The notes beneath the pieces are model-generated. The model was not told the origin of the DNA and made no database searches. It saw only the letters and a program-made list of their open reading frames with translations. The position numbers and the translations under genes were made by a program. From Synechococcales cyanobacterium bin59.metabat.ball.084 (lineage in GTDB: Bacteria; Cyanobacteriota; Cyanobacteriia; Cyanobacteriales; Chamaesiphonaceae): a DNA stretch of 32,558 bases. Location: positions 1-32,558 of the forward strand of contig JAAFHZ010000043.1 in NCBI GenBank assembly GCA_013297675.1. The letters are read 5' to 3'. Positions 23,250-31,102 of this stretch are shown here, piece by piece (position 1 is the stretch's first letter; each line of letters begins with the position of its first letter).

Positions 23250-23282
23250 TGAAAAGAATACAGAGCAGAGGCTAGAGTGCGA

Positions 23283-23420
23283 GAGGGTAGAGGATTACGA
23301 AGTCCTGGGGATTTCACACATAACTCGAAACCCAATTACGTAGCTATTAGTATCGGGGTTGATGTTGCGAGTAGCAGAGCGGCAGTATCTCGGAATGTTG
23401 TTCCAGGAACCGCCCCGAAT
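23283..23420 (-). other. Putative DGR variable region (VR), copy 1
   Basis: This 138-bp tract spans the last 42 codons of the short FGE gene and about 15 bases past its stop. Compared with 25012-25152, 27 of 28 codons for shared amino acids are identical at the DNA level. The remaining codons are clustered and differ, and in most of the substitutions one copy has A on the coding strand. This fits adenine-directed mutagenic copying from a template repeat. No template is present in the window. Confidence 0.6.
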
Positions 23421-24131
23421 AACATAACTAGGATTCTCTCTATCGGACAACCAAGCACTACCATCGATCGGTGCTCCTTCATAAGTATTATGCCAATGAT
23501 CTAAGCACCATTCCCAAACGTTGCCATGCATATCGTATAAGCCGTTGGCATTGGGCAGAAATGTATTGACCGGAGTTGTTGCTTTACGGTGGATGCCTTT
23601 TTCTCCTTGACCATAAGAGCCTGACCAACTGCCATCAGTATTATCAGTCCCATCATAATTAGCTAAATCGGTAGAGATTGTTTCACCAAAATGAAATGGT
23701 TGCTGGCTACCGGCTCTACAGGCATATTCCCATTCGGCTTCGCTGGGAAGTCGATATTGGCGTTGGCTATATATTGTAAGCCGATCGCAAAATTCTACGG
23801 CATCAAACCAGTCAATGCTTTCTACTGGGTTAAAATCCTTATCTTTGAAGTACGCTGGCCGAAGCTTCAGTTGTCTCTTTACTGCGGGCATTTTTTGAGC
23901 TACTGCTGCCCACTGAGCCTGAGTAATCAAGTATTCACCCATGAAAAATGAGGGCACTGTCACTTCATGCTGTGGGCTTTCGGTAGATCGTCGATCGATC
24001 TCACCATCTGGAGAACCCATCATAAATTTGCCACCCTCAATCAGCACCATTTTCAACGGTGGTAAACCGGGCAGTGGCTCTGCAAAAAAGTGGATTTGCT
24101 TGGTGTGGGACTTAATGATTTGCTGGGGCAT
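23295..24131 (-). CDS. FGE-sulfatase / C-type-lectin-fold protein with variable C-terminus
   Basis: The 278-residue protein is a stand-alone FGE-sulfatase domain: MVLIEGGKFMMGSPDGEIDR, VTVPSFFMGEYLITQAQW, PVESIDWFDAVEFCDRL, RLPSEAEWEYACRAG, GLYDMHGNVWEWCLDHWH and a final RGGSW block. Human and actinobacterial formylglycine-generating enzymes have a Cys pair in the region after RGGS; here the first is missing (RGGSWNNIPRYCRSATR), so enzymatic activity is unlikely. The fold more likely binds a ligand. The last 42 codons behave like a DGR variable region and match the larger FGE gene at 25024. It lies 36 bp after the HigA gene in the same direction and may be co-transcribed. No strong Shine-Dalgarno precedes the ATG. 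Confidence 0.85.
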   Translation of the reverse strand: MPQQIIKSHTKQIHFFAEPLPGLPPLKMVLIEGGKFMMGSPDGEIDRRSTESPQHEVTVPSFFMGEYLITQAQWAAVAQKMPAVKRQLKLRPAYFKDKDFNPVESIDWFDAVEFCDRLTIYSQRQYRLPSEAEWEYACRAGSQQPFHFGETISTDLANYDGTDNTDGSWSGSYGQGEKGIHRKATTPVNTFLPNANGLYDMHGNVWEWCLDHWHNTYEGAPIDGSAWLSDRENPSYVIRGGSWNNIPRYCRSATRNINPDTNSYVIGFRVMCEIPRTS

Positions 24132-24167
24132 GAGAAATCAAACATGTTGGTGAGTCGATTTTTATGA

Positions 24168-24584
24168 CTAAATAAATAAGCTAGAAGACACTTTAAACAT
24201 CTCACCTAGTTTTTTGGCCTGAGCCTTACTAATGGTTCGACTACCATTTACTATTTCTGAGACTACCCCCTTGCTGCCAATAATACCCACTAAATCTATC
24301 TGTTTAGTATTACTAGCAGCCATAATATGCTGCAAAATTTCATGAGGCGCAGATTTTCCCCAGTCATCCAAATTGTAATGTTGAGATTCGTAGTCTTCAA
24401 TGAGTTTTACTACTAACCGAAACAGGGTAGTTTCTTCTGGGGTACGCAGGTTTTTTTTAGTGAGCAGATCCTCGGCCACTGCCAAAAATTGTCTGTATTC
24501 AGCTTCGGTTTCAATTACTTTAGGGCTAATTTTTGCTGCTTCCCAAAGTTGTAAGTAGCTATTTTGATTAATAGTGAGGGTCAT
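24168..24584 (-). CDS. higA: HigA-type antitoxin, HTH transcriptional regulator
   Basis: The 138-residue protein has an N-terminal helical region (TEAEYRQFLAVAEDLL) and a C-terminal helix-turn-helix: EILQHIMAASNTKQIDLVGI followed by GSKGVVSEIVNGSRTISKAQ. This is the layout of COG5499 HigA-like antitoxins. It would bind and neutralise the HigB toxin and repress the shared promoter. Its ATG lies inside the end of the toxin gene (17-bp overlap), giving translational coupling in the toxin-first order typical of higBA. Confidence 0.88.
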   Translation of the reverse strand: MTLTINQNSYLQLWEAAKISPKVIETEAEYRQFLAVAEDLLTKKNLRTPEETTLFRLVVKLIEDYESQHYNLDDWGKSAPHEILQHIMAASNTKQIDLVGIIGSKGVVSEIVNGSRTISKAQAKKLGEMFKVSSSLFI

Positions 24585-24867
24585 TTTTCCATTGCTCCTT
24601 GTCGTATTCAGCGTGAGTTAAAAAATATTTGTAGTAAATAACTTGTTCTTCATAATCGATCGAGACAATCAGGCGATATTTGTTACCTTTGATGTTAAAA
24701 ACAGTGAAGTTACTTACGGCTTCTGCGTCTCGATACACGGCCTGAACATCAATTAAACTTTGCCACTCGGCTGTTTTTACGATGTCGTACCATTCTTTAA
24801 GCTGTTTTTGAACATCTGGGTATGGTGCAGCATCTTGACGTAGATTGCTAATTGTAATGAGGTGCAT
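24568..24867 (-). CDS. higB: HigB-type mRNA interferase toxin
   Basis: The 99-residue protein matches the HigB toxin family in the RelE superfamily. It has an N-terminal helix ending LKEWYDIVKTAEWQSLIDVQ, the strand motif FNIKGNKYRLIVSIDYEEQV and the family's C-terminal KYFLTHAEYDKEQW. Such toxins cleave mRNA, usually on the ribosome, when the labile antitoxin is lost. Length is normal and no disruption is visible. The pair sits between two related FGE genes, so it may have been inserted there or may stabilise the region. Confidence 0.88.
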   Translation of the reverse strand: MHLITISNLRQDAAPYPDVQKQLKEWYDIVKTAEWQSLIDVQAVYRDAEAVSNFTVFNIKGNKYRLIVSIDYEEQVIYYKYFLTHAEYDKEQWKNDPHY

Positions 24868-24895
24868 GGCCTTATTAATTGGCTAGTTCTTTTAG

Positions 24896-24912
24896 GTTCT
24901 CATACAGAGAAC
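24896..24912 (-). promoter_or_regulatory. Candidate operator of higBA with adjacent -35 element
   Basis: GTTCTC and GAGAAC form a perfect 6-bp inverted repeat separated by five bases, about 30 bp upstream of the higB start. A TTGACA hexamer reading leftward lies at 24922-24917, immediately upstream. The position fits autorepression by HigA, since such antitoxins bind palindromes overlapping their promoter. A matching -10 hexamer at standard spacing is not obvious. Confidence 0.45.
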
Positions 24913-24966
24913 TGATTGTCAATGTATAGGTTCTATTGGTAGATTGCTCATTTTAAAAAAATATTT

Positions 24967-25014
24967 GATCGCTAAAAGCGCAAGCGAAGCTACCGCCTAT
25001 GGCGAATCAAGGAG
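24967..25014. repeat. Dispersed GC-rich repeat, copy B
   Basis: A 48-bp copy of the same repeat as 23203-23249, in the same orientation, ending about 10 bp past the stop of the larger FGE gene. It keeps the same internal inverted repeats (CGCT with AGCG, CGCC with GGCG). The spacing to the stop differs from copy A by about 35 bp. Confidence 0.75.
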
Positions 25015-25152
25015 GGTAAAGGATTACAAAGTCCTGGGGATTTCACACACAACTCGAAACCCAATTTCGCTGTTACTAGTTTCGGGGATGAGGTAGTTGC
25101 GAGTAGCAGAGCGGCAGAAGCTTGGTCTGTAGTTCCAGGAACCGCCCCGAAT
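25012..25152 (-). other. Putative DGR variable region (VR), copy 2
   Basis: This 141-bp tract spans the last 43 codons of the larger FGE gene and continues past the stop to the same CTACCCTC-like junction as copy 1. It has one codon more than copy 1 in the loop after CRSATRN. Upstream of ATTCGGGGC the two genes differ at ordinary synonymous sites; inside the tract they do not. Confidence 0.6.
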
Positions 25153-26832
25153 TATATAGCTAGGGTTATCTTGATCAGATAACCAAGCGTTGAAATTGAT
25201 CGGTGCCCCCTCATAATTATCGTGCCAGTGATCTAAACACCATTCCCAAACATTTCCATGCATATCAAATAATCCAAATCTATTTGCTGCCCTAAATGAA
25301 CCTACCGGAGTTGTTTTTTGTCGATATTCTCCTAATTGGCCAGAGCCATATTTACCAGAATAAGTTTCGTTTTCATATTCCCAATCTTGAGCGGAATAAT
25401 TGGCCACTTCCGAGCTAATGGTTTCCCCAAAATGAAACGGGGTTTTTGTCCCAGCCCTACAAGCATATTCCCATTCGGCCTCTGTAGGTAATCGATAATT
25501 TCGCCCAGTATGCTGTGAGAGCCGAACACAAAATTCCTGAGCATCCCACCAGCTAACTTTCTCTACCGGTAAATCATTTCCCTTAAAACGTGCCGGGTCA
25601 TCGGTTAGTTCATGCTCCATTTGGGGCAAACCCGCCACAAATCGCCATTGTGTCTGAGTAATCGGATACTTACCCAAGAAAAACGCGGGTACCGTCACCT
25701 GATGCTGAGGGCTTTCATCTGCATATCGATCGATCTCAGTATCTGGCGAACCCATCATAAAAGTGCCCCCAGGAATTGCCACCATTTCTAAACTAACATC
25801 CTGACCCAGCGGCTCCTTAAATGCCTTAGCCCTCCCCATCTCCGCAGGCGTAATACTGCTGCCAGTGGCAGTAAGCATAACGATCTCAAACTCAAATTCA
25901 TACAGAGCATCCCCCGCCTCGATCGCCGTTTCGCTAACTTCGATCGTGTTGTAAGTAACCTCACCGCTCTGCAATACCGGGAAATCAGCTTGGGTAACGA
26001 TTTTATAGACTCGATCAGTTTCCCCAGTGAATAGAGAATCGATCGATACCTGTCGTACCAACTCATCCCAAAGAACCGGTGAAAGATTTGTTCGATCGAG
26101 CACCCCCGGCATATTGCTATCCACCTCCGACCACCGAATCAAATCCTTTAAACCATCAGATCTCTCTAACAATTCCCGCAAATACTGAGTAATTTTTTCA
26201 GTATTTTCGGCACCCTTTTTCAAATAAGCCAAAGCAATCCACTCTAGCGGCTCACCCAAAATTTTGCCCCGCAGCTTTTTATCTACCTGCATTCGATAAT
26301 AAACATAGTCTGCCATCCATAGCCCCAATTCCTCTAACCTAGACACCCCTTCGGCTTCAGCTAATTTACTTAACAGTACTTCCCGCAGCGGCGCACCCAT
26401 CGCATACAAATCAGCCCCGATCGTGTCACACAAATTAGAAAGCAACAGCTCTGGGGCAGCAGTCCAAGGCAAATTTATCCCATATTTTTCTTGCACTAAC
26501 TGCCGCAATAAATAGGCCAATTCTGTAGTTAAGGTCAAAGGCAAAGCCGCATGGCAAGCATATTGCAGCATTTTTTTGCCATATTCTTCACCATACAGCT
26601 CTGCAAACTCCATTTCAAACAGTTCAATTTGCCTCTGGGCAATTTCCCGCTCCCGAATAAAATTAATATCCACTACAGATAGCATCGAAAGACCCTCACC
26701 CCAGCTCTCTCTCAAGGCAAGAGACTTCGCTTTGTGCTCCTGCCCCCCTTCTCCCTCCTTGGGAGAAGGGGTTGGGGGATGAGGGTCTTTCCCTGTATTC
26801 CACGTCTCATTACTACCAATCGTCATCATCAA
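25024..26832 (-). CDS. Helical-domain plus FGE-sulfatase/C-type-lectin-fold protein, probable ligand-binding output of a MoxR-vWA system
   Basis: The 602-residue product has three parts. Residues 14-49 are encoded by a dispersed repeat. Residues about 50-340 are mostly helical (INFIREREIAQRQIELFEME and onward) with a domain found beside SAV_2336/MoxR genes. Residues about 347-602 are an FGE-sulfatase fold: MVAIPGGTFMMGSPDTEIDR, RLPTEAEWEYACRAG, MHGNVWEWCLDHWH and RGGSW. The first catalytic Cys of true formylglycine-generating enzymes is absent. The ATG at 26832 overlaps the stop of the SAV_2336 gene by 20 bp. An alternative ATG at 26685 has GAGG eight bases upstream, supplied by the repeat, and would give 553 residues. 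The C-terminal 43 codons look DGR-diversified. Confidence 0.85.
   Translation of the reverse strand: MMMTIGSNETWNTGKDPHPPTPSPKEGEGGQEHKAKSLALRESWGEGLSMLSVVDINFIREREIAQRQIELFEMEFAELYGEEYGKKMLQYACHAALPLTLTTELAYLLRQLVQEKYGINLPWTAAPELLLSNLCDTIGADLYAMGAPLREVLLSKLAEAEGVSRLEELGLWMADYVYYRMQVDKKLRGKILGEPLEWIALAYLKKGAENTEKITQYLRELLERSDGLKDLIRWSEVDSNMPGVLDRTNLSPVLWDELVRQVSIDSLFTGETDRVYKIVTQADFPVLQSGEVTYNTIEVSETAIEAGDALYEFEFEIVMLTATGSSITPAEMGRAKAFKEPLGQDVSLEMVAIPGGTFMMGSPDTEIDRYADESPQHQVTVPAFFLGKYPITQTQWRFVAGLPQMEHELTDDPARFKGNDLPVEKVSWWDAQEFCVRLSQHTGRNYRLPTEAEWEYACRAGTKTPFHFGETISSEVANYSAQDWEYENETYSGKYGSGQLGEYRQKTTPVGSFRAANRFGLFDMHGNVWEWCLDHWHDNYEGAPINFNAWLSDQDNPSYIIRGGSWNYRPSFCRSATRNYLIPETSNSEIGFRVVCEIPRTL
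26687..26791. repeat. MITE-like repeat with terminal inverted repeats, in frame inside the FGE gene
   Basis: The element is 105 bp, a multiple of three. Its ends are inverted: GAAAGACCCTCACCCC at the left and the complement GGGGGATGAGGGTCTTTC at the right, with one small mismatch. In the leftward gene it is translated as GKDPHPPTPSPKEGEGGQ and onward with no stop. It is related to the repeat at 28880-28975 and to a class of GC-rich repeats scattered in many bacterial genomes. Confidence 0.75.
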
Positions 26833-28084
26833 ACTCCTGGTTTTCGATCGATCCCAACGATGTTAGCTGCACATTTGCTGTAAATTGCTTGGTGCGAGTC
26901 AGCCGCTGCCAATTAGCTGCTTCCAAAGATATCATTCTGCCCGCTAAAGCGGCCTCGATCGGCTCTGCCGCAGTCCCCGGCCAGCGCTCTGGCGGCAGCG
27001 GATTCACCCATAATACCTCGCGCACCGCTGGCAGCAGTCGAGCTAAAAAAAACCCTACCCCGCTCACCTGCTCCTGTTGATAAATAGGGCTAATTGCCCC
27101 AGCATCACTGATAATCACTACCATTGTTCTTTGCTTACTCCAGGTTTTGGCCACCTCCACCAGCGGCACCGCCCACAGTGGCCGCTGCCAGGGATATAAA
27201 TAGTCGCCAGGATATTGATTAAACCGATAAATGGGCGACTGCCCTTGGCCAAGCTGCATGATCATCTGCACAAATGGCTCCACCACTGGCATAAATGGCC
27301 GCATTCCATTACTATCATCCACTAACAGCAACAAATTGACTTTTTTCGGGCTGAAAGGACGCATTACTTCCGCACTAAACCGTCCTTCTCGACCAATTTT
27401 TTCTACAGTAGCTGCTACATCTAACTCCGGCCAGTGCCAATTGGGGAGCGATCGAGGCAAGTTTGCCGCACCGCGCCGCAATAAAGCTACATCGATCGGG
27501 GTTTTGATCGTGAACTTGGTTTCTTGAGTTTGATTAGGCGAGGGTAAATCTTTAACTGCATCGGCAGCTAGGCGATTGGTAGATTTATTGGTGGTCGTCG
27601 GTGTTCCAGGTGGTCGATCGGCAGCATCTGGCGGTGGTCTTTTGCGGGGCGGTGGAGTTAGGGGTAAATCTGTTGTCTGCTCACTCTGTTGGTTATCATG
27701 AACTTGCTGTGGTGGCCACAGGCTGCTTAGTTGATCTTGCTGATTCGATCGATACTGGGCAAATTCTCGCTCAAATATTTGGGCATCGTAATTTAAGCTG
27801 GGTTTGACCCATAACAGCCGACAAATATCCTCTAGATCTGACCAATCAGCTAAGCCAAACCCCGAGGCGATCGATCGGCGCAGTTGCTCATAGTCTTCGA
27901 TCGTCAGAGTCATGCCCGCCCGCCGCAGTTGCCAAAACAAATCCCAACAGGGCATAAATGCCTGGTTTTCGGGGAGTTGCTCCTGATTCAGGGTCATGCC
28001 TGCTGCCCGCAGTTGCCGAAAAGATTCCCACAGGGTGGTAGATGATGGGGGGTGAGCGCTCGATCGTTTATTCCGATTCGCCAT
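26813..28084 (-). CDS. SAV_2336 family protein with degenerate vWA domain
   Basis: The 423-residue protein has an N-terminal helical SAV_2336-type domain (about 15-115), a Pro-rich, low-complexity linker (about 116-195) and a vWA-like domain from about 248 (VNLLLLVDDSNGMRPF). The metal-binding DxSxS motif is D256-D-S-N-G, so its third residue is Gly; the second strand, VVIISDAGA, is present. It probably couples to the MoxR ATPase encoded just upstream, as vWA partners of MoxR usually do. Its ATG overlaps the MoxR stop by 17 bp and its stop overlaps the FGE start by 20 bp, so the three proteins are translated as a unit. An 84-bp offset tandem duplication lies in the N-terminus. Confidence 0.85.
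   Translation of the reverse strand: MANRNKRSSAHPPSSTTLWESFRQLRAAGMTLNQEQLPENQAFMPCWDLFWQLRRAGMTLTIEDYEQLRRSIASGFGLADWSDLEDICRLLWVKPSLNYDAQIFEREFAQYRSNQQDQLSSLWPPQQVHDNQQSEQTTDLPLTPPPRKRPPPDAADRPPGTPTTTNKSTNRLAADAVKDLPSPNQTQETKFTIKTPIDVALLRRGAANLPRSLPNWHWPELDVAATVEKIGREGRFSAEVMRPFSPKKVNLLLLVDDSNGMRPFMPVVEPFVQMIMQLGQGQSPIYRFNQYPGDYLYPWQRPLWAVPLVEVAKTWSKQRTMVVIISDAGAISPIYQQEQVSGVGFFLARLLPAVREVLWVNPLPPERWPGTAAEPIEAALAGRMISLEAANWQRLTRTKQFTANVQLTSLGSIENQEFDDDDW
27909..28036. repeat. Tandem duplication (84-bp unit) in the SAV_2336 gene
   Basis: About 44 bases beginning GTCATGCC recur at 27909 and 27993, 84 bp apart. The translated copies are FRQLRAAGMTL and FWQLRRAGMTL, 28 residues apart. The high DNA similarity suggests a recent duplication of one helix, while the phase is kept. 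Confidence 0.65.
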
Positions 28085-29267
28085 AAATAAAACTCTCGTG
28101 GTTTTTGCGGTACAGCTCTTGGTCGGCTTGGGTTTTTAAGATCATGCCCAGCAAATGCGGCTGTTCTCCCAATGTTTCTAAAGCGGCTAACTCGGCCTCC
28201 CCTGCTTGCAGAGTGATTTCTAGGTAATCTAGCAACTCGCTGGTGCCGGGTAACTTACTACCCAGCTTGCCTTTCAACAAATCCCGAATTTCATAAAAAT
28301 GCCCAATGGTATCAGCCACATACTGCCTTTGCGCAGTACTTTGCTTCCCAAAGCGTTTGTCAATTATTTCTTCTAGCCCCGTCTTTGCCGGGAATTTTAA
28401 ATAATAATACAAGCATCGCCTTAAAAATGGTTCGGGCAATTGGCGCTCCTGGTTACTGGTAATAATCACGATCGGCTTTGGTTGCCAATTACTGCCCAGT
28501 ACGGGGTATCTTTCACCGGTTTCTGGAACCTCAAAATATTGCCGCTCTAGCTCTAGCAGCAGATCGTTACAAAAATCATTGTCTGCTTTATCAATTTCAT
28601 CAATCAGCACGATCGGGCGCAGTATATCTGTCTGATGTAATGCCTCACCCAGCTTCCCAAACTCCACATATTTTGTTTTGTCGCGTAATCGTTCTTTGAC
28701 ATTATTAAATTCTTCACCCATCAATTCTTCTAAATCTTGAGGATTCAGCCCCATTAGTTGAGCATCCCGCAATCTGGCGACCGCATCAAAGCGATATAGT
28801 CCATCTCTAGCCTGGGAGTTAGATTTTACATTCCAAACATAATAATTCCACCAAATTTTAGGCGGGGAACAACTCGACTGCCCTTCTTCCACAAGGGGAG
28901 CGAGAAACTTCGCCCCGTGCTCCGGCTCCCCTGCTCCCGCCTTGGGAGAAGCAGTTGGGGGATGAGGGTCTTTTCCTGCTATCTCTATGGTCTTTGTTCC
29001 ACTTCGAGTTGCAGCCCTTTCTGGCTCCTGATTTACTCGTAAATATTTCTGAGTAAACTGATAAGCCAATGAATAAGCCAACTGGGTTTTGCCGCAACCC
29101 GGCTCTCCTTCGATCAGCAGCGGTCGCTTTAACTGAATCGCTAAATTCACAGCTTTAACTAACTTCGGGTCAGGAATATATGGATAATAACCATTCACTT
29201 GCTCTGCCTCAGGAGGTTGTAGCTCATCTGTTGGATATTCGTATTCTGGATTTTGTTGATTAGTCAT
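28068..29267 (-). CDS. MoxR-type AAA+ ATPase
   Basis: The product of about 399 residues is a MoxR-clade AAA+ chaperone. It has Walker A GEPGCGKT (Lys60), Walker B VLIDEID (about 220-226), sensor-1 ITSNQER and the arginine-rich EPFLRRC. It keeps the VWNVKSNSQARDGLYRFDAVARL stretch typical of MoxR ATPases linked to vWA partners. Between Walker A and this stretch (about residues 99-132) there is an extra segment encoded by a dispersed repeat, without which the protein would be a normal length. TTG at 29282 is in frame, but ATG at 29267 shares an ATGA with the stop of the upstream gene and is the real start. It would remodel the vWA protein or its target using ATP. Confidence 0.9.
   Translation of the reverse strand: MTNQQNPEYEYPTDELQPPEAEQVNGYYPYIPDPKLVKAVNLAIQLKRPLLIEGEPGCGKTQLAYSLAYQFTQKYLRVNQEPERAATRSGTKTIEIAGKDPHPPTASPKAGAGEPEHGAKFLAPLVEEGQSSCSPPKIWWNYYVWNVKSNSQARDGLYRFDAVARLRDAQLMGLNPQDLEELMGEEFNNVKERLRDKTKYVEFGKLGEALHQTDILRPIVLIDEIDKADNDFCNDLLLELERQYFEVPETGERYPVLGSNWQPKPIVIITSNQERQLPEPFLRRCLYYYLKFPAKTGLEEIIDKRFGKQSTAQRQYVADTIGHFYEIRDLLKGKLGSKLPGTSELLDYLEITLQAGEAELAALETLGEQPHLLGMILKTQADQELYRKNHESFIYGESE
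28880..28975. repeat. MITE-like repeat, in frame inside the MoxR gene
   Basis: The right end (GGGGGATGAGGGTCTTTT) and the centre (CTTGGGAGAAG, ACTTCGC, GTGCTCC) match the element at 26687-26791. The left end has diverged, so its boundary is approximate. It is in the same orientation and read in the same frame, giving GKDPHPPTASPKAGAGEPEH. Confidence 0.65.
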
Positions 29268-30385
29268 GATCCTAAATCCCAATTATTTTTAATTGTTGTA
29301 ATTCCATCCGGTACACCAAGTGTTTCACAAATTTTATCCAACACATCCTGTGGTTTTTGCCAGTCTAACAAAAGCCCTGATAAAATTCCCTCGTATTTGG
29401 CTAAAATCTTATGCTTCTCTTTGTGTGTTTCTATCCACTTATTGATATCACCTAAGCTTATTTCATTTAATGGATCTAAGCTAACTAAGAAGCTTTCACT
29501 TGGCATATTAAAGCATGGTGGTGATCGATCGTTCCAGAAAATCACTAATCTGGGATGCGCTGAGGAGCTACGGTTGTTTTGGAAATAGTTGAACAATTTT
29601 TTGGTGAATTCTTCCAAGATTTCATTATCTTCCTGAAAATTACAAATATTTAAAACTGTTGGGAAATTACAATCACAAATAATTGCTAGCTTCTGATCAT
29701 CTGTCGAAGATTGATGATCTGAGATACCGATTATCTTAATTAACTCATCAAGAAATCTAGAGTATTTTACACATTGTAAATTACTCATGTTGATCAAATA
29801 CAACTTTGAGCAACCAGGCCATTTTTTAGTAAGACTGGAGAATAATCTTTTTAACAAATAATTTCGGACAAGAGAAGTTGGGGCAATTACAGAAAAGTTG
29901 TAAAAGCTATGAGACTGTAGAAGACATTGCCCAAATTCATCTTCTTGATTAGCACAGTTGAGAAGGTCAAGTGCATTCACTATTTTCTTCTCAGTATTTT
30001 TTGAAATCTCAGACCTCTTGATCCAAACGACAGGAATTTCCCAACTCTTTTTATTTTCATATTCATTGCAGCGACAATAAGTGAAATAAACTTGCAAATG
30101 GTTATTTGTATCTGCAAACCCTTGCAATGCTAACTTGGGGTCTTTTCGAGCCTTAGATTCAATCTCTTCAATCGCTGTTGTAAAAAAGATCTTGAGAGAC
30201 TTTAATGTAAAAGGTTTGCCGGAATTTCCAAGCATGGCAGAAATTACCTCTTTATCCATTTGCAAATGCTTACGAACATCAGCAATAGTTTTTCTTGAAC
30301 CTGGAAATTTACCGGTAAGTGCTGATATTACAGCATCACAAGCCTTTTTGCCCTCATCCGTAAAAGTGTACCAATTTTCATCCAT
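29264..30385 (-). CDS. Putative inactive-STAND-like protein, first gene of the MoxR-vWA operon
   Basis: The product of about 373 residues starts with a winged-helix-like domain (WYTFTDEGKKACDAVISALT, then RKHLQMDKEVISAMLGN). A region resembling a STAND-type NTPase follows: CNEYENKKSWEIPVVWIKRS, FSVIAPTSLVRNYLLKRLFS at the P-loop position without GxxxxGK[ST], then a Walker-B-like strand KLAIICDC and the end block DPLNEISLGDINKWIE. If this is right the domain is a catalytically dead sensor. The open frame extends to ATG at 30535, but ATG at 30385 has GGTGG four bases upstream and lies past a perfect palindrome, so I choose it. Its TGA overlaps the MoxR ATG by four bases. I am not certain of the family. 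Confidence 0.55.
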   Translation of the reverse strand: MDENWYTFTDEGKKACDAVISALTGKFPGSRKTIADVRKHLQMDKEVISAMLGNSGKPFTLKSLKIFFTTAIEEIESKARKDPKLALQGFADTNNHLQVYFTYCRCNEYENKKSWEIPVVWIKRSEISKNTEKKIVNALDLLNCANQEDEFGQCLLQSHSFYNFSVIAPTSLVRNYLLKRLFSSLTKKWPGCSKLYLINMSNLQCVKYSRFLDELIKIIGISDHQSSTDDQKLAIICDCNFPTVLNICNFQEDNEILEEFTKKLFNYFQNNRSSSAHPRLVIFWNDRSPPCFNMPSESFLVSLDPLNEISLGDINKWIETHKEKHKILAKYEGILSGLLLDWQKPQDVLDKICETLGVPDGITTIKNNWDLGS

Positions 30386-30404
30386 AAAGCCACCCATTTT
30401 GCTG

Positions 30405-30428
30405 AACCGATAATTTGAATTATCGGTT
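30405..30428. promoter_or_regulatory. Perfect palindrome upstream of the conflict operon, candidate operator
   Basis: AACCGATAATT is followed, after two bases, by its exact complement AATTATCGGTT. A further GGTT-x6-AACC half-site overlaps the right arm (30425-30438). The element lies 20 bp before the preferred start of the operon's first gene, where a repressor could block transcription or where an mRNA hairpin could hide the ribosome site. Confidence 0.5.
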
Positions 30429-31102
30429 GCCGATAACCTGAAGGATATCTTAGCAGAAAATTGCTGCAATATAGACAGCAAACAAATCACAGCGAGGCAT
30501 TCGGAATTGAAAATTAAAATAGTTATCGATTTCAATGACAGCTAGTAATCAATATTGGTATTGGTATAGACATCAGCAGAAAGTTCTTGCATACAAGGTT
30601 TCAGCCGATAGACAAATCACCCAAAAGCAATATGAATCACCAAAAATCCAAAAACTCTCAAGACCGCGCTATTCTGCTATTAGTAATTCGTTTGATCCTC
30701 TCGATCGCTTGCCAAATAGCCGAATCTGGTTGGTGGCAAGACGGGCTTAGCTCTCACCCAGAAAGCACCAAAAGTGAGATCATGGAACGCAATGCAGAGC
30801 AAGGCTCTTGCGATATTCACCCACCTGAAGATCAGTGAATTTCTCTGCTCCCCAGCAGACATTACAACGGAGCAAGGGTGATTCGATCGCCCTTGCCAAA
30901 CAACTACATCTTAACCACAATCAACCTCTGGCAAAGACATCGGATCAGAATCTATCCCCAAAACCTTCACCAATCTTCACAGATCTGCTTTCAACCTCTT
31001 AGGCTAATTGTTCACCTGAGCAAATAGACCAACTTAGGAACCTTTTTGACGCACAGACAACAGTATGATCATTAACAAAATTGTAAATCTAGGGTCTCGA
31101 CA
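30429..31102. other. Intergenic region with a possible small membrane ORF and a strong hairpin
   Basis: About 670 bp separate the divergent conflict operon and the GHL10 gene. A rightward frame with ATG at 30632 encodes about 68 residues containing one hydrophobic helix (AILLLVIRLILSIACQI). It has no Shine-Dalgarno, so it is doubtful. A 30872-30896 hairpin follows its stop. Promoters for both flanking operons should lie here, but none is convincing. Confidence 0.4.
30872..30896. repeat. Hairpin with 11-bp stem
   Basis: GCAAGGGTGAT pairs with ATCGCCCTTGC, with one G-U wobble, around a TCG loop. There is no T tract on either side, so it is not a clear terminator. It includes a CGATCG core and may be a small dispersed repeat. 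Confidence 0.5.

Follow-up and report, generated by a model that had tools for sequence, protein, structure and literature searches.

Two FGE-fold genes of a cyanobacterium share a probable DGR variable-repeat tract for which no matching template is found in the assembly

Results

A shared tract at the 3' ends of two FGE-fold genes

The neighbouring FGE-fold genes C159a and C159b very probably encode DGR variable proteins that belong, together with a third gene on another contig (C3a), to one template (TR) family, whose TR has been lost, is unassembled or lies on an accessory replicon. Both genes end in a tract that is nearly identical in its shared codons, and the base differences within the tract almost all involve A and change an amino acid. 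The same genome carries a complete DGR on contig C181, but no TR matching the tract was found in the assembly. The window, i.e. the whole stretch of 32,558 nucleotides analysed here, is contig C159 of this genome (G000), which comprises 4.64 Mb in 220 contigs. Features of the window are collected in Table 1.

Table 1. Features of the window relevant to the two FGE-fold genes.
Feature	Position	Strand	Remarks
Gene 1 (C159a), FGE-fold (C-type lectin type) probable variable protein 1, 278 aa	23295..24131	-	PF03781, E 5.9e-55
Probable variable-repeat tract of C159a, IRGGSW to stop	23295..23420	-	similarity to gene 2 extends to 23283
AGGACT, IMH-like end of gene 1	23301..23306	-	same in control target C181a; C181 TR has AGCACT
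HigB partner, possible HTH antitoxin	24168..24584	-	weak HTH_3, E 0.016, below cut-off
HigB-type toxin gene, between both FGE genes	24568..24867	-	PF09907, E 5.5e-31
Gene 2 (C159b), FGE-fold probable variable protein 2, 602 aa, FGE at residues 349-595	25024..26832	-	PF03781, E 5.8e-58
Probable variable-repeat tract of C159b	25024..25152	-	similarity to gene 1 extends to 25012
AGGACT, IMH-like end of gene 2	25030..25035	-	same in control target C181a; C181 TR has AGCACT
vWA-domain protein	26813..28084	-	PF05762, E 2e-8, over cut-off
AAA+ ATPase, MoxR-like by position	28068..29282	-	PF07728, E 3.5e-8, over cut-off

An AAA+ gene and a vWA gene, as in MoxR-vWA systems, adjoin gene 2 on its upstream side. 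The AAA+ protein is taken as MoxR-like because it adjoins vWA and FGE genes; the subtype is thus an assignment by context, and its match to the MadB ATPase model NF047784 lies far under the cut-off. A vWA gene also precedes the FGE gene on contig C3. A VMAP protein was not recognised: the reading frame at 29264-30535 matched no family over the cut-off, and profile searches found no family in the N-terminal part of gene 2. The FGS domains of MoxR-vWA ternary conflict systems have been reported as DGR-diversified, according to the available part of the paper (PMC7159879). A HigB-type toxin gene and its possible antitoxin (24168-24867, minus strand) separate C159a from C159b. Among the 78 loci listed for gene 1 in the named genome collection, all but two carry cyanobacterial titles.

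Over the last 41-42 codons of C159a and C159b, 27/28 codons with a shared amino acid are identical at the DNA level, versus 76/129 upstream, over the remainder of the domain (Fisher P 3.5e-5). An earlier note on this DNA had claimed this identity for 42-43 codons, and on recomputation the 27/28 holds for the slightly shorter tract. Its further claim of five synonymous differences in the 15-codon block just upstream, DMHGNVWEWCLDHWH, where the two proteins are identical, was confirmed from the DNA, and synonymous sites upstream of the tract are heavily changed in general. The one-codon difference in tract length is also real. Past the stop codon, similarity continues as had been proposed, but for 12 bases with one mismatch (ending at 23283 and 25012) rather than as about 15 bp of identity. 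Both tracts form the 3' ends of C-type-lectin/FGE-fold genes, as seen from PF03781 and an alignment with TvpA.

A third member of the family

The genome has 17 matches to PF03781, 16 of them over the cut-off; the 17th is the C181 TR. Excess C-terminal codon identity was assessed for all 120 pairs of the 16 FGE genes, with a Bonferroni threshold of 4.2e-4. The four highest-ranking pairs are C159a/C159b (P 4.2e-5), C159b/C3a (0.0012), C159a/C3a (0.0013) and the control pair C181a/C181b (0.0017), of which only C159a/C159b passes the corrected threshold, and the fifth-ranked pair follows at P 0.022. From this ranking two families stand out, namely C159a/C159b/C3a and the C181a/C181b pair beside the resident DGR. 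C3a, an FGE gene on contig C3, has the same tract as the two window genes, and codon identity in the tract is 27/28, 27/31 and 26/29 for the three family pairs versus 58-60% upstream. C3a shows one clear non-adenine difference, a C/T at column 38.

Signs of adenine-directed diversification

Within the tract, A is involved in 16/18 base differences between C159a and C159b, versus 134/219 upstream in the same pair (P 0.014). The adenine bias that the earlier note had described is present, although its count of 14/16 becomes 16/18 on recounting. The two exceptions are a T/G difference and a C/T difference in the last codon (TCG/TTG). Before the last codon there are 17 base differences, 16 with A and the 17th being the T/G, which is still compatible with adenine mutagenesis because an A in a template could yield it; together these change the amino acid of 12 codons and leave one change silent. 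Across the three family pairs the excess of A is modest (P 0.014, 0.12 and 0.028).

At 30 positions, half or more of 12 real TRs have an A, and variable columns of the family occupy 17/30 of these, versus 11/88 of the remaining positions (P 4e-6); these 11 columns sit where most other TRs have no A. We note that TR adenines lie in loop codons that might be variable anyway. Since the family's own TR was not found, the argument for adenine specificity is built on the comparison of variable repeats (VRs) with one another and on the TRs of other families.

Codons with changed amino acids also tend to keep their third base, as predicted from AAC codons in a TR: this is seen in 10/13, 8/10 and 10/13 such codons of the family pairs, and in 28/81, 28/87 and 27/82 upstream. 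The same test is positive for C3b/C181a (12/14, P 2.6e-5) and C159a/C181a (12/19, P 0.011), so it is perhaps unspecific, and the third-base pattern may mark ancestry from AAC-rich TRs in general rather than from one shared TR.

In the alignment of TRs (A1), 8/12 end in AGCACT or AGTACT. The AGGACT of the window genes recurs in 6/16 FGE genes of the genome and in 4/18 VR-like ends of four relatives, and since it is not general we give this end little weight. In eight VR-like FGE genes, those of the window included (23271-23294 and 25000-25023, minus strand), pyrimidines dominate the 24 bases 3' of the stop (mean 0.79); the means are 0.53 for 76 control ORFs and 0.50 for the other eight FGE genes, where the grouping by end and pyrimidines was chosen after the sequences were inspected.

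A complete DGR on contig C181

Read along the minus strand, contig C181 carries an FGE target (C181a), bAvd, an RT of 355 aa and a TR, with a second FGE gene (C181b) further on, such that all parts of a DGR are present. The bAvd exceeds the cut-off of both PF22296 and NF033474. The RT matches PF00078, and its best PDB match is 8ub7, 'Reverse transcriptase' (E 2.2e-47), which we take to be a DGR RT; the IGNLTSQ motif of the C181 RT is presumably DGR-typical. RT matches from PADLOC and NCBIfam are generic, the latter lying below the cut-off. Two other RTs were considered: the C101 RT was rejected as a DGR RT, as it is a group II intron RT (GIIM), and the C78 RT, a 276 aa ORF near a contig end, matched RVT_1 only and has no match to our TR RNA model (R1, below) nearby.

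The C181 TR directly follows the RT stop codon, and the RNA downstream of it is an R1 match of 103 bits (this copy is in the R1 training set). C181a differs from the TR at 13/111 compared positions, a count that omits the differing IMH end, and 13/13 of these are TR adenines. C181b shows 16 differences, 12 of them at TR adenines. The end of C181b (C181:19251-19284, minus strand; L046) carries the TR-type AGCACTCT plus 26 more bases of the TR downstream RNA region, and this TR-like stretch stops at the apex of a predicted hairpin. Possibly it derives from a cDNA that brought spacer sequence into the target, or from recombination with the TR.

At 85 non-adenine positions, the C181 TR mismatches C159a at 26, C159b at 23 and C3a at 24. 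As homing copies the non-adenine bases, this indicates that the C181 TR did not write the window tracts, and it was rejected as their direct source. The earlier note had ascribed both genes to one DGR with its RT and template elsewhere. A DGR-type RT with bAvd does exist elsewhere in the genome, on C181, but no matching template was found in the assembly.

Searches for the family's own template

The earlier note saw no template or RT in the window, which is correct for the window itself; the genome does contain both, on C181, with a TR that does not match. Searching the assembly with the VR DNA gave no second TR. A pattern search that allowed up to 3 mismatches and left most variable sites unconstrained hit five places, each within a known FGE gene, and BLAST of the genome with an inferred TR returned five places in known genes plus 12 matches of 25 bases or fewer. 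R1 found only the C181 copy in G000, where 150/1002 first-look candidates were scored, so a decayed TR copy could be missed.

In G001, a genome of the same genus, we found no DGR RT at E 1e-40, no R1 match and no template, and R1 gave no match in G005 either. The closest FGE homologue in G001 (G001:C62, L222) is interrupted by in-frame stops and ends abruptly; a second contig (G001:C28, L220) has a VR-like remnant close to its start. In a search for a donor TR among 388 genomes of the class, with at most two candidates at E 1e-14 or better scored per listed genome, the best match lying outside G000 reached 82% over 105 bases. In the 100 relatives, values were 68-77% for matches of at least 89 bases and 80-86% for shorter ones (51-60 bases). 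Six plasmid records gave 73-83%, and phages gave no match.

A conserved RNA next to templates, and templates apart from an RT

A conserved, covarying RNA lies directly 3' of cyanobacterial DGR templates (alignment A2, from which R1 was modelled). RNAalifold on 12 TRs predicts 25 pairs, in 15 of which both partners have changed. The TR end, ACTCTTC, is paired with GAAGAGT of the downstream RNA, and this pairing may explain why TR and VR ends differ. A scan of four loci against Rfam assigned the TR RNA to no family; the two miRNA matches below threshold fall elsewhere and are dismissed as chance. The first TR collection read one strand and yielded a TR from 10/18 RT loci. G066 and G019, both single-contig genomes, have two R1 matches apiece, of which one lies outside the training set. 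Such an RNA offers a means of finding templates even when their target is not known.

Among 100 relatives (G000 included), R1 matches occur in 24 genomes under stricter filters and an RT at E 1e-40 in 16, all of which fall within the 24. Loci were available for 30 of the 31 R1 matches listed, and when both strands were inspected, 12/30 had no RT within ~1.5 kb, although an RT may be further off. The clearest RT-less TR among these loci is in G066, where a VR and an intact TR are 290 bases apart at 3.47 Mb (G066:C1:3474829-3475517; L256:4830-5518). This locus of 3.1 kb contains no RT match, and none was recognised among the listed ORFs of 12 kb; the sole DGR RT match of the genome is 1.4 Mb away.

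Plasmids carry DGR parts as well. R1 matches outside the training set were found on Microcystis aeruginosa NIES-2481 p1 and Acaryochloris marina pREC1, and the plasmid records with DGR template RNAs are NZ_AP026076.1 (L282) and NZ_CP025929.1 (L281). In the record of pREC1, Avd and an RNA-directed DNA polymerase are annotated; two transposase genes separate Avd-RT from the TR on this plasmid. The RT ORF seen on p1 is only 235 aa long.

Discussion

That both window genes are DGR targets, as first put forward in the earlier note, is well supported: in an otherwise identical tract the differences are A-compatible and nearly all alter an amino acid. The FGE/C-type-lectin fold, the AGGACT end shared with C181a, the copy in C3a and the presence of a real DGR in the genome are further evidence. 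We propose that one TR would have supplied the VRs of C159a, C159b and C3a via adenine-specific mutagenic reverse transcription, with AGGACT as the end at which homing took place. Either the C181 DGR, in trans, or an element now lost could have provided the RT and bAvd, and the family TR would since have been lost, or would be unassembled or on an accessory replicon. Precedents for a missing TR are the RT-less TR in single-contig G066 and the DGR parts on cyanobacterial plasmids.

An alternative that we consider unlikely is that the tract was made uniform across the three genes by ordinary gene conversion, with positive selection on loop residues thereafter. The layout would suit it, as C159a and C159b, similarly oriented and separated by ~1.7 kb, have the tract in common but many synonymous differences just upstream, and the pairwise excess of A is modest only. 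Yet 16/17 differences before the last codon include A, the 17th is compatible and a single codon changes silently; gene conversion alone is inadequate, because the differences nearly all include A and change codons. Further points against it are that variable columns coincide with the TR adenines of other DGRs, that the tract recurs in C3a on another contig, and that the genome has a DGR whose target is of this type.

We see very little chance that the C181 DGR, with the TR it has now, is itself diversifying the window genes, even though its RT and TR RNA are the only ones of DGR type found in the genome and remote targets are known in cyanobacteria, by the accessible portion of PMC7517822. 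The 23-26/85 non-adenine mismatches exclude this for the tracts as they stand. It is just as improbable that the tracts represent old, conserved C-termini of FGE genes whose identity is maintained by DNA or RNA constraint, with no role for a retroelement. The motifs RGGxW, CRSx and GFRx do occur in nearly all 16 FGE genes of the genome, but other FGE pairs, the C181 pair excepted, have no such excess of codon identity (next best P 0.022), and the upstream block that is identical in protein has five synonymous differences. A lost, unassembled or accessory TR remains our preferred reading.

A broader and more speculative reading, which we hold to be possible but doubtful, is that cyanobacterial DGRs are separable modules, in which free-standing TR RNAs, some of them plasmid-borne, would be gained and lost over time and would borrow one resident RT-bAvd in trans. 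If so, a cell would keep VR families written by templates now absent, and the window family would attest to a template that has departed or is unassembled. Here one genome holds two VR families, one with a template and one without, and with two such families in one genome, template turnover and the trans use of a single DGR RT become testable. In the non-subscription literature searched, we found no paper on an 'orphan' DGR variable protein. Remote cyanobacterial VRs (PMC7517822), as well as trans use and a locus with no TR match (PMC10907252), are already published, as the available parts of both papers indicate.

The setting of the window genes resembles the MoxR-vWA (VMAP) ternary conflict systems of Kaur et al. 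2020 (PMC7159879), which likewise have adjoining AAA+, vWA and FGE genes. In the sections of that paper available, vWA and FGE are mostly fused, whereas in the window they are separate genes and no VMAP is recognised. By analogy with these systems, the diversified FGE domain is probably the ligand-sensing end of a MoxR-vWA-FGE conflict locus.

TvpA, the DGR variable protein of Treponema denticola (PDB 2y3c), comes from a different organism and its likeness to the window proteins is a sequence match only; it has the FGE/C-type-lectin fold, and the window VR aligns with its C-terminal region. The remote variable proteins of cyanobacterial DGRs described by Vallota-Eastman et al. 2020 (PMC7517822) resemble those of the window in that a C-type-lectin VR lies at the C-terminus, at a distance from the DGR cassette. 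As described in the accessible text, those VRs were tied to the DGR of their own genome by a 50% identity threshold, whereas for the window non-adenine sites rule out the resident TR, and no TR of the family was found. Also comparable are the DGR loci of Thiohalocapsa PB-PSB1 described as degenerate and trans-diversified (Dore et al. 2024, PMC10907252), where VRs likewise lie at loci without RT or TR. While the window is read from an assembly alone and belongs to a cyanobacterial host, in PB-PSB1, on the evidence of the part of the paper available, variants in which RT and TR are intact were detected by long reads.
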